From Flavobacteriia bacterium (GTDB lineage Bacteria > Bacteroidota > Bacteroidia > Flavobacteriales > Schleiferiaceae), in NCBI GenBank assembly GCA_013373425.1, contig JABXHW010000021.1, positions 62,001 to 126,000 on the forward strand: a DNA stretch of 64,000 bases, written 5' to 3'. Below the pieces are notes generated by a model that saw nothing but the letters and a program-made list of their open reading frames with translations, ran no database searches and was not told the origin of the DNA. The number at the start of each line of letters is the position of its first letter. Within the stretch, counting starts at the first letter, position 1. The position numbers and the translations under genes were made by a program. Shown piece after piece: positions 44,173 through 58,756 of this stretch.

Positions 44173-44180
44173 CGAAGGTA
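44173..44180 (-). promoter_or_regulatory. -7-like element for the M16 protease
   Basis: Minus-strand TACCTTCG, one mismatch to TAnnTTTG, ending 7 nt before the ATG at 44165. Confidence 0.3.
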
Positions 44181-44186
44181 CGGAAA

Positions 44187-44266
44187 AGGGGGTAAGGGAG
44201 TTAAAGGTTTTTAAGGGGCTCAGGGGGAGGGGAGGTGTTAAAGTGTTGAGGTAGGTAAAGTCTATC
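44187..44266 (+). repeat. Degraded octamer repeat array
   Basis: Purine-rich spacer that can be read in 8-bp steps: AGGGGGTA, AGGGAGTT, AAAGGTTT, TTAAGGGG, CTCAGGGG, GAGGGGAG, GTGTTAAA, GTGTTGAG, GTAGGTAA, AGTCTATC. The 12-mer AAGTGTTGAGGT (44241-44252) occurs exactly in the large array at 57590-57601, and both are followed by GTCTA. It lies upstream of the M16 protease promoter-like element. Confidence 0.45.
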
Positions 44267-52358: not shown

Positions 52359-52910
52359 TTATTCTTCAGATTTCTTATCGTCAGCCTTCTTTGCTGTAGT
52401 CTTCTTCGCTGCTGGTTTCTTAGCAGTAGTTGACTTCTTAGCGGCTGTAGTTTTCTTTGCTGCTGGCTTAGCGTCAGTCTTAGCTTCAGAAGCCTTCTTA
52501 GTAGTAGTCTTCTTCGCTGCTGGCTTCTTCGCTTCAGCCTTTGGAGCTTCTTCAGTCTTCGCTGCTGCTTCCTTCTTAGGAGCGGCTTTCTTAGCGGCAG
52601 GCTTACCGAAACCAGTGATTTCGATAGATGTGATGGCCTGACGGTGACCGTTCTTCTTCTTGTAGCCTTTGCGACGTTTCTTTTTGAAAACGATCACTTT
52701 ATCAGCCTTCAAGTGCTCAAGGATAGTTGCATTAACTGCAACACCTTCTATAACCGGGGCGCCAACTTCTACCTTACCGTTATCATCGGTCAAAAGAACG
52801 CGGTCGAAAGTCAATTTCGCACCTGCTTCTCCTTCGAGACGATTAACGTAGAGGCGTTGGTCTTTTTGTACTTTGTACTGATGCCCTGCTATCTCTACAA
52901 TTGCGTACAT
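52359..52910 (-). CDS. rplU: 50S ribosomal protein L21 with long Lys/Ala-rich tail
   Basis: 183 aa; the L21 core is residues 1-102 (MYAIVEIAGHQYKVQ..., FKKKRRKGYKKKNGHRQ, SIEITG), the usual full length. Residues 103-183 (52362-52604) form an extra low-complexity tail of Lys, Ala, Thr and some Glu built from PAAKKTT- and AAKKSTT-like repeats, resembling histone H1-like bacterial tails. It is in frame with rpmA following normally, so not a frameshift artefact by appearance. The tail may contact rRNA or be disordered. Confidence 0.95.
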   Translation of the reverse strand: MYAIVEIAGHQYKVQKDQRLYVNRLEGEAGAKLTFDRVLLTDDNGKVEVGAPVIEGVAVNATILEHLKADKVIVFKKKRRKGYKKKNGHRQAITSIEITGFGKPAAKKAAPKKEAAAKTEEAPKAEAKKPAAKKTTTKKASEAKTDAKPAAKKTTAAKKSTTAKKPAAKKTTAKKADDKKSEE

Positions 52911-56530: not shown

Positions 56531-56557
56531 AAGGTCGCCTTATTGGGCGGCCTTTTT
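56531..56557 (+). terminator. Terminator of the M16 pair
   Basis: Stem AAGGTCGCC/GGCGGCCTT (one G-T wobble), 6-nt loop and a T run; its right half overlaps the stop codon of the convergent DMT gene. Confidence 0.82.
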
Positions 56558-57439
56558 CATTTTACGGGCATTCACCAAATAGACACCACTTAGAATGGCG
56601 ATGATACCGATGATATGTCCAGCAGTCACTTCCTCGCCGACAGTTACACCCCAGCCCAATGCGACAATGGGCACCACGTAGGTGATGCTAACTGCAAACA
56701 TCTGTGAAGCTTTCTTGATGAGGTAATTGAAGAGAATAATGGCAAAACCGGTTCCCATCACACCAAGAATAGCAATGAAGCCGATGGCATTCAAAGCCTG
56801 AGGGTCCTCTGAAATTACCGTGGTGAAGTCTGTGAAGAGGAACAGGCTGAGTATCGCCAGCGGACCAACAATCGTAAGGGCTAGTGCCGTAATGGTGATT
56901 GAATCGTAGTGCTGTAATTTCGCGCTTATCGTATTCACACCAAAGGCGTACATCATGGAAGCTCCAATGGTCAAAAGGGCGTACGGCCAATTCTCCCCTA
57001 GAGCGGCATTGTTCGCTGGGTCGATCATGTAATAGGTTCCAAAAAGACCTAATGCGATACCAGCGAGTTGAAGCGGTCGGATTCTGATTTTGTAGAGCAC
57101 GGCGCCCACAACCAAAGTGAACAGGGGAGTGAGCGAGTTGGTAATTCCACCAATGGAGGAATCGATGTGCATCAAACCCCAGGCAAAGAGGATGTAAGGG
57201 AAACCATTTCCAAGAAAGCCCACGATCATGATGGCCGGCAAATCCTTCTTTTGAAAGTTCTTCAACTTTCGCCAACCAATCGCTAGGATAAATAGCAATG
57301 CAAAACAGATACGCAATAGCGCTACCTGAACACCGTCAAACGACTCAAGTCCTTTCTTCATCAAGATGAATGAACTACCCCAAGTAAGGGCGAGGAGGGC
57401 GAAGATGCCTATGTTGAGTGCTTGTTGATTCCCTTTCAT
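56540..57439 (-). CDS. EamA/DMT-superfamily transporter
   Basis: 299-aa membrane protein with about ten helices in two EamA repeats (N-terminal LLALTWGSSFILMKKGL and PLFTLVVGAVLY; C-terminal repeat ending IIAILSGVYLVNARK). Likely a metabolite or amino-acid exporter; substrate not predictable. Preceded by an exact -7 element only 4 nt from the ATG. Confidence 0.9.
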   Translation of the reverse strand: MKGNQQALNIGIFALLALTWGSSFILMKKGLESFDGVQVALLRICFALLFILAIGWRKLKNFQKKDLPAIMIVGFLGNGFPYILFAWGLMHIDSSIGGITNSLTPLFTLVVGAVLYKIRIRPLQLAGIALGLFGTYYMIDPANNAALGENWPYALLTIGASMMYAFGVNTISAKLQHYDSITITALALTIVGPLAILSLFLFTDFTTVISEDPQALNAIGFIAILGVMGTGFAIILFNYLIKKASQMFAVSITYVVPIVALGWGVTVGEEVTAGHIIGIIAILSGVYLVNARKMKKAAQ

Positions 57440-57443
57440 GGGG

Positions 57444-57451
57444 CAAAAGTA
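57444..57451 (-). promoter_or_regulatory. -7 promoter element directly before the DMT gene
   Basis: Minus-strand TACTTTTG, exact TAnnTTTG match, ends 4 nt before the ATG at 57439; a leaderless or nearly leaderless mRNA is implied. Confidence 0.45.
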
Positions 57452-57554
57452 GTTCGAATACTCAGAGTAATATCGATGTGCATATAACTTAACTTGATGA
57501 GGTCTACGTCATCGGTTGAACCTGTGGGATGACAGGATTGTTAGATGTGCGGTG

Positions 57555-57562
57555 TATCTTTG
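57555..57562 (+). promoter_or_regulatory. Possible -7 promoter element ahead of the octamer array and ctaA
   Basis: TATCTTTG, exact TAnnTTTG match. Transcription starting five to seven bases downstream would begin at about 57568, the first base of the octamer array. No clear -33 element. Confidence 0.4.
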
Positions 57563-57567
57563 GGGGC

Positions 57568-57735
57568 GTGGCGACGTGCGGATGTGGGGAAGTGTTGAGG
57601 TGTCGAAGTACGGAGGTCAGCAGGTCTATTTGTCCATTAGTCTAAAAATCTAATTCTCTGATAGTCTAACAGTCCAAGAGTCTAATTGTCTATTAGTCTA
57701 AATATCTATCCATCTGATAGTCTATAAGTCTACTT
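57568..57735 (+). repeat. 21-unit degenerate octamer repeat array upstream of ctaA
   Basis: Continuous 8-bp periodicity over 168 bp without a single phase shift. Units 1-7 (57568-57623) are GTGGCGAC, GTGCGGAT, GTGGGGAA, GTGTTGAG, GTGTCGAA, GTACGGAG, GTCAGCAG. Units 8-21 (57624-57735) follow GTCTAATA: GTCTATTT, GTCCATTA, GTCTAAAA, ATCTAATT, CTCTGATA, GTCTAACA, GTCCAAGA, GTCTAATT, GTCTATTA, GTCTAAAT, ATCTATCC, ATCTGATA, GTCTATAA, GTCTACTT. The array ends 4 bp before the ctaA ATG. The rest of this 300-bp intergenic region (57452-57554) holds nothing I recognise. Confidence 0.85.
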
Positions 57736-57739
57736 TCAC

Positions 57740-58756
57740 ATGAAAGAATTATGGTTTCGCCGTCTCGTGCGAATTGAATTGCTGCTCATCTTTTTGGTCA
57801 TACTCGCTGGATCGGTGGTTCGAATGACCGGTTCTGGAATGGGTTGTCCGGATTGGCCGCAGTGTTTTGGATACATGATTCCACCAACAGAAGAGTCGCA
57901 GGTTCTTTGGACAGCAGGGAAAGAGTATAGTGATGGGCAAATGATTGTTCATGCCGATGCGATGTATTCGGCAAACGGTGATTTCACATCTGGGGATGAG
58001 TACAATCCTGAAAACTGGACGAAGTACACCAAGCACGACTATGCCATTTTCAATCCTACGCACACTTGGGTGGAGTACATCAATCGCTTGCTCGGAGCGT
58101 TGAGCGGGCTGCCGATGGTGCTGCTGCTCGTTCTGAGTCTGACGGAGATTCGCAGAAAACCTAGCTATACTTTGTATTCGGCCATCGGATTATTCCTTCT
58201 GGGGTTTGAAGCCTGGTTAGGCAAAGAAGTGGTGGATGGAAACTTGATTCCCGGACAGATCACCTATCACATGTTGGGTGCATTCGCCATTGTGATGGTG
58301 CTCGCTTTGTTCTTGAATACGCTAAGAGGTGGAAAGTTGAAACAGCTTCCAATTCCACGCGGATTGATCTTTATCGCATTGGTGCTGATGCTCATTCAAA
58401 CCGTGTTGGGCACGCAGGTGAGAGAGCAAGTAGATGGATTGACCAAAATGTTTGGAGATGATGCAAGCCGAGATGGTTGGATCTCTAAACTCGACTTCAT
58501 GATTTACGTCCACCGCTCGGCATCTTTGGTGGTTACCGGTTTGATTTTCTACCTCTGGTACAAAACGAAGAAAGCTGGACAGTTCCTCAAGTTCATGAAT
58601 GGTGCCTTTGCGATGGTTATGCTGTCGACCTTGACAGGTGCTATCTTGTTTTATTTTGATATTCCCAAGGTTTTGCAACCGGTTCACTTGTTATTGTCTG
58701 CAGGGATTATCGGTACGCTAATGTTCGGGTTGACGCTCAGAGAAAAAGACGCCTGA
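57740..58756 (+). CDS. ctaA: Heme A synthase (COX15/CtaA)
   Basis: 338-aa membrane enzyme with about eight helices converting heme O to heme A for cytochrome oxidase. Heme-ligand histidines His108 (PTHTWVEYINRLLG), His177 (ITYHMLGA), His258 (YVHRSASLVVTG) and His316 (LQPVHLLLSAG). The signature MTGSGMGCPDWPQCFG includes Cys36 and Cys42. A hydrophilic insertion of about 50 residues follows that motif. Its leader is probably the octamer array. Confidence 0.94.
   Translation: MKELWFRRLVRIELLLIFLVILAGSVVRMTGSGMGCPDWPQCFGYMIPPTEESQVLWTAGKEYSDGQMIVHADAMYSANGDFTSGDEYNPENWTKYTKHDYAIFNPTHTWVEYINRLLGALSGLPMVLLLVLSLTEIRRKPSYTLYSAIGLFLLGFEAWLGKEVVDGNLIPGQITYHMLGAFAIVMVLALFLNTLRGGKLKQLPIPRGLIFIALVLMLIQTVLGTQVREQVDGLTKMFGDDASRDGWISKLDFMIYVHRSASLVVTGLIFYLWYKTKKAGQFLKFMNGAFAMVMLSTLTGAILFYFDIPKVLQPVHLLLSAGIIGTLMFGLTLREKDA

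Follow-up and report, generated by a model that had tools for sequence, protein, structure and literature searches.

The octamer array upstream of ctaA

In the window, by which we mean the whole 64,000-nucleotide stretch of Flavobacteriia bacterium DNA that was analysed, ctaA lies on the plus strand at 57740..58756 and encodes a heme A synthase (COX15/CtaA) of 338 aa (Pfam PF02628, E 2.1e-41; orthologues found). Its left neighbour, on the minus strand at 56540..57439 with its start at 57439, is an EamA-family transporter gene (Pfam PF00892, E 1.7e-37). Direct reading gave a promoter-like element for each gene: TACTTTTG at 57444..57451 on the minus strand, 4 bases ahead of the EamA ATG, and the TAnnTTTG element TATCTTTG at 57555..57562 on the plus strand, which is also found ahead of ctaA in both congeners (here G001 and G002; G000 is the genome under study, and L numbers denote loci). 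An earlier note, made from the window's sequence, had described 21 consecutive octamers without insertion or deletion at 57568-57735, and the 168 bp do divide into 21 in-phase octamers with no indel. Lag-8 identity over the segment is 0.62 vs 0.26 +/- 0.04 in dinucleotide shuffles, with 0/5000 shuffles as high; comparison with shuffled sequence had been proposed in the same note as a check, and the shuffles fall far short. Identity stays high at lags 16 (0.59), 24 (0.59) and 32 (0.60), and TRF called a period-8 core at 57638-57701. Unit position 2 is T in 21/21 octamers, and position 1 is G in 17/21. The array ends four bases ahead of the ctaA ATG (57740), as had been reported, but starts five rather than six bases after TATCTTTG. 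That the octamers could make up the 5' leader was upheld to the extent that they lie between the TAnnTTTG element and the start codon, and they probably constitute most of the ctaA leader.

The division of the array into seven GTGxxGAx units and fourteen units of a second type needed revision in its first part only. The right half, at 57624..57735 on the plus strand, indeed consists of 14 GTCTAATA-type units directed toward ctaA, with the GTCTA core constant and the final three positions varying. The left half, assigned from unit reading and strand composition, comprises six units at 57568..57615, in the order GTGGCGAC GTGCGGAT GTGGGGAA GTGTTGAG GTGTCGAA GTACGGAG, which on the minus strand are TCC-type octamers directed toward EamA; GTGCGGAT, for example, is the reverse complement of ATCCGCAC. 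The seventh unit, GTCAGCAG at 57616..57623, has no strand assignment and is the turning point at which the polarity flips. Since the GTGxxGAx units are TCC-type units of the reverse strand, what looks like one array is a back-to-back pair, with each member running toward its own flanking gene, EamA on the left and ctaA on the right. A forward grammar in which GTGxGGA, CTGGA, TCCAG and TCTAA follow one another in fixed order was rejected; CTGGA and GTGxGGA are reverse-strand units. The outward two-sided layout was also found at prfB, L316, L038, L320 and L045. A single phase spanning both halves is not general, the half-to-half offset differing among the six two-sided loci, and the phase common to both halves at ctaA is therefore probably due to chance. 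Likewise, the claim that the 8-bp phase never slips holds at ctaA but fails in the sibling arrays at prfB, ruvX and thrS.

Two other repeats were seen in the window. A weaker purine-rich lag-8 stretch at 44176-44260 (35/64 matches) is probably a further decayed octamer array. The period 15/18 repeats at 52386-52571 (CTTCTTAGCTGTAGT and similar) look like a minus-strand lysine/alanine-rich coding repeat.

Sibling arrays in the genome and its relatives

The genome was sampled by stretches and by pattern searches. The pattern GTCTAnnn, with up to 2 mismatches allowed, gave 63 matches vs 11 for a reversed-pattern control, the matches falling in about 20 gaps elsewhere in the genome. Other octamer families (GGTGAGCT, GCAGGAAC, CCTGCGTT and GTGTTGAG) are present, as are the heptamer families GTACCCA and GTACTGG. 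In 550 kb of this genome's DNA not picked for GTCTA matches, non-coding tandem arrays numbered 12 at lag 7, 13 at lag 8 and one at lag 9, with zero at lags 5, 6 and 10-13; the higher lags seen were 14 and 16, i.e., multiples. Shuffled gaps, the control for this count, gave 0 arrays at lag 8. The non-coding preference is strong: lags 7 and 8 dominate non-ORF DNA, and all arrays bar a few lie in gaps. The arrays of this genome show both a fixed short unit length and many loci per genome, as expected of the intergenic 7-8-nt tandem repeats (long SSR / STRR class). Five contigs of the assembly (L073, L079, L080, L235 and L236) start at position 1 inside 7- or 8-nt arrays (CCCAGTA, AGCTCACC), so arrays interrupt the assembly and their counts are too low.

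Unit length differs between the congeners. In G002, where the sample was partly picked for GTCTA matches, octamer arrays outnumber heptamer arrays 34 to 4 and often consist of CCCTCTAA; G001 gave 12 heptamer arrays and 0 octamer arrays. One G002 locus (L086, 9225-9702) holds a higher-order repeat in which a 46-bp octamer block recurs about every 93 bp. Three further members of the family have almost no arrays, and ten more genomes from the family and order, sampled at 40 kb each, were mostly without them, with five heptamer arrays in one.

The ctaA array thus belongs, with a unit of 8, to the intergenic simple repeats of 7-8 nt that are already known, and is no special ctaA switch. The earlier note knew of no named element of this kind, but related repeats have been described under several names. 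Long SSRs with units of 5-11 nt and one dominant unit length near 7 were reported by Mrazek et al. 2007, who, in the accounts given in PMC4679880 and PMC4692102, ascribed the dominance of 7 nt to slippage with a polymerase-footprint step. Like the long SSRs as described there, the present arrays are short-unit tandem repeats with a unit length near 7; unlike them, they mix periods 7 and 8 and have strongly degenerate units. TAACTGA heptamers occur in Beggiatoaceae, cyanobacteria and a few Bacteroidetes (PMC4679880). These and the cyanobacterial STRRs are, like our arrays, tandem, intergenic and often near start codons, with a patchy distribution in which the same site is empty in close relatives, but they are heptamers with nearly invariant units, and the Beggiatoaceae repeats are mostly forward and upstream of starts, whereas our arrays are symmetric around genes (PMC4679880).

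The closest likeness in layout is to the G-rich heptameric SSRs GGGAATC of Xanthomonas and GGGGA(C/T)T of Nostoc, which lie on the non-coding strand within 50 bp upstream of genes and on the coding strand downstream, overlap stop codons, include some inverted pairs, and have no known role (PMC4692102). As in those repeats, the G-rich strand of our arrays points away from the closest ORF, whether the array lies at its 5' or its 3' end. The differences are that our unit is 8 rather than 7 nt, and that the published repeats carry quadruplex-capable G-runs which GTCTAATA units lack. Further, sites are mostly common to two Xanthomonas species, while the sites tested here are not common to the congeners, and divergent gaps, under-represented for the Xanthomonas and Nostoc heptamers, carry arrays in several cases here. 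No paper on such octamer arrays in Bacteroidota was found in the literature library searched. What sets our arrays apart is the degenerate, AT-rich octamers without G-runs and their head-to-head pairing.

Orthologous sites and gap length

The earlier reading of the array as an element of ctaA or of leaders was not sustained: at prfB, thrS, def and ruvX the array precedes the promoter-like element, and other sibling arrays sit at stop codons. Orthologous regions lacking periodicity, named in the earlier note as a refutation, were observed at genus level, both congeners being without any array at ctaA. At seven orthologous sites, those of ctaA, prfB, thrS, def, ruvX, ppi (a peptidyl-prolyl isomerase gene) and nadpr (an NADPH reductase-like gene), no octamer array was present in G002, and none was present in G001, where the thrS site has a heptamer array instead. 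The congeners are distant, CtaA identity between them and the genome under study being 66-71%. The TAnnTTTG promoter-like element beside the array is kept at ctaA, prfB and thrS. The convergent nadpr genes practically touch in G002, with a gap close to zero, whereas in G000 the gap holds an outward array pair with both stop codons within the array. Overall, array-bearing gaps are about 80-140 bp longer, the G000 medians being 248/300/218 vs 165/157/128 for gaps without arrays. Given the empty orthologous sites and the longer array-bearing gaps, the arrays look like recent additions rather than conserved control elements.

Two sites in the congeners have other repeats in place of octamers. Upstream of thrS in G001 (L276), a CATCCAC/CACCCGT heptamer array adjoins the upstream side of the conserved TACCTTTG element, the same place as the octamer array of G000. 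Upstream of ruvX in G002 (L283), GC-rich palindromes (CCGCCTACCGGCGG / GCCGACCGCAGGGAGGC) are found where G000 has its octamer array.

These comparisons bear on the proposal that a protein binds the octamers cooperatively, as DNA or as leader RNA, and so controls ctaA and other genes. The constant GTCTA core with its variable last three positions is what such a binding site might look like, the GTCTAnnn unit is found at many genes, and none of 200 shuffles of the ctaA leader RNA is as unstructured as the RNA itself (z +2.2). The lack of positional conservation at the seven sites tested in G002 speaks against it, however, as does the variable place of arrays relative to promoter and start, stop codons being used as readily; moreover, unrelated unit sequences and both periods behave alike. 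We regard regulation of this kind as distinctly improbable. A known structured leader or riboswitch was also sought, and Rfam gave no match in 57300-57900 up to E 1; an RNA hairpin leader at ctaA was rejected, the RNA being less structured than its shuffles. Another proposal, that the arrays are what is left of a mobile or inserted cassette with inverted octamer arrays as its ends, would account for the outward inverted layout and for insertion into short gaps. Against this, the offset between halves is variable, the halves may belong to different families, as at ctaA, many arrays are one-sided, and neither a core gene nor a target duplication was seen. A cassette origin is very unlikely.

Outward polarity

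By inspection, all 22 TCYR half-arrays in G000 (13 at starts, 9 at stops) face the gene that they abut. When edges of the genus 7-9-nt arrays were scored mechanically, as C over G, the C-rich strand was the one toward the nearest gene by 18:3 at 5' edges and 25:8 at 3' edges. In array-free flanks of the genus the corresponding fractions were 0.75 (5') and 0.54 (3'), so the 5' skew in the genus is partly background. The polarity was also found in public loci from many phyla (at least 119 loci, recovered with one pattern seeded on GTCTA, so that the phylum list is no census). Among the matches listed, arrays scored 45:13 at 5' edges and 74:16 at 3' edges, and the array-free flanks of the same loci gave 0.57 at 5' and 0.54 at 3'. 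With one count per assembly over the first 80 of the at least 119 loci, the ratios were 22:3 at 5' edges (p 1.6e-4), 29:2 at 3' edges (p 5e-7) and 37:3 over all edges. A stop codon is part of TAGAC and determines where the ORF finishes, so the 3' counts are possibly inflated; 5' edges are free of such bias. Among the matches listed, 29 pairs of adjacent arrays of opposite skew were arranged outward and a single pair inward. Dense head-to-head pairs occur, among the same matches, in L137 (a Caldilineales MAG), L189, L209 and L215, with units such as GGTAGATT / CCAATCTACC and AAGTAGAC / GTCTACTT. Similar polarity has been published for G-rich heptamers only, and is unexplained there (PMC4692102). 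Our observations extend the outward polarity to AT-rich octamers.

G-quadruplex or i-motif elements have been proposed for the heptamers of Xanthomonas and Nostoc, and the present arrays share the borders and the polarity reported for those repeats (PMC4692102). The GTCTAATA units show the same polarity yet lack G or C runs, so that GTCTA arrays cannot form either structure, and as an account of the present arrays quadruplexes are scarcely credible.

An alternative is that the arrays are Rho-type insulators, in which C-rich, G-poor, unstructured RNA with regularly placed YC blocks transcription coming from outside the gene. The genome has a rho gene, the C-strand is 0.34-0.48 C and 0.07-0.19 G, and phased YC occurs in 76-100% of units. 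At ctaA, C exceeds G on the EamA-facing strand of the left half (29 C : 6 G) and on the ctaA-facing strand of the right half (25 C : 16 G), in both half-arrays a composition of rut type, in which C outnumbers G across some 78 nt of unstructured RNA. Outward polarity would place RNA of this kind where transcription arrives from outside, and in G000 convergent gaps are enriched for arrays (16/36 vs 22/234, p 1e-6). This enrichment is absent in G002, however, the right half at ctaA would sit within the ctaA leader, and array-free 5' flanks in the genus are already skewed alike (0.75). Intrinsic-terminator-like hairpins are not depleted where arrays are present; replacement of intrinsic terminators by arrays was rejected, with hairpin-like sites in 9/16 convergent gaps with arrays and 11/20 without, by a crude detector. 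Cyanobacteria in general are not known to have Rho, and Synechococcus elongatus, among the controls, gave no Rho match. The same polarity is nevertheless reported for Nostoc (PMC4692102), a cyanobacterium, and the C spacing of 8 (7-8) in the arrays lies outside the published rut rule of a C every 11-13 nt (PMC6407284). Rho-dependent insulation thus seems quite unlikely, and neither Rho nor G-quadruplexes fit as a general explanation of the polarity.

Origin of the arrays

On the observed class membership, recurrence, gap preference, absence at the ctaA sites of the congeners and outward polarity, we think it probable that the ctaA feature is a decayed back-to-back octamer pair in the EamA-ctaA gap, one case of a class of intergenic 7-8-nt repeats that is genome-wide in this genus. 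Such arrays would arise by copying with a 7-8-nt step, perhaps by polymerase slippage as proposed for bacterial heptanucleotide repeats. Short gaps of the ordinary kind would grow in this way, the arrays would spread to, or form anew at, numerous gene borders, and point mutation would afterwards erode them. The array at ctaA would be tolerated there rather than selected for a function, and probably separates an old promoter from its gene, giving a long unstructured leader by accident. With the G/purine-rich strand directed away from the border of the gene, growth or retention of the arrays would have to be directional.

In some arrays of G000 and G002, adjacent units are more alike than in unit-shuffled copies, which is what local copying predicts. 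In the GTCTA half at ctaA, adjacent units resemble each other no more than distant units do, and the G001 heptamers show no neighbour effect, so simple local slippage is not the explanation of all arrays. Plain slippage, moreover, predicts neither the polarity nor unit sequences common to several loci. Loss of mismatch repair as the cause was rejected, as MutS is present in all 21 genomes.

Eukaryotic interstitial telomeric repeats are head-to-head TTAGGG/CCCTAA fusions. They share with our arrays a G-rich strand that heads outward on either side until a junction is reached, a likeness of geometry only; the G002 units TTAGAGGG/CCCTCTAA also recall them. By this analogy, 7-8-nt intergenic arrays in many bacterial phyla may grow outward from gene borders, through extension of the G/purine-rich strand, until their ends meet head to head, in the geometry of fused telomeres. 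Directional growth would fit that geometry, the variable junction offset, the two families at ctaA and the fact that sites are not conserved. We know of no enzyme for outward directional growth of arrays, and we consider this origin unlikely. If it is true, there would have to be an end-extension or break-healing activity, so far unrecognised, that works in steps of 7-8 nt.

In sum, the supposed leader of a single gene appears as an example of a general rule, as yet unexplained, that intergenic short-unit repeats in distant phyla face their flanking genes on both sides. Since the polarity holds for AT-rich octamers, quadruplexes are not its cause. A fixed 7-8-nt step with directional growth would be a testable idea on how bacterial gaps expand.
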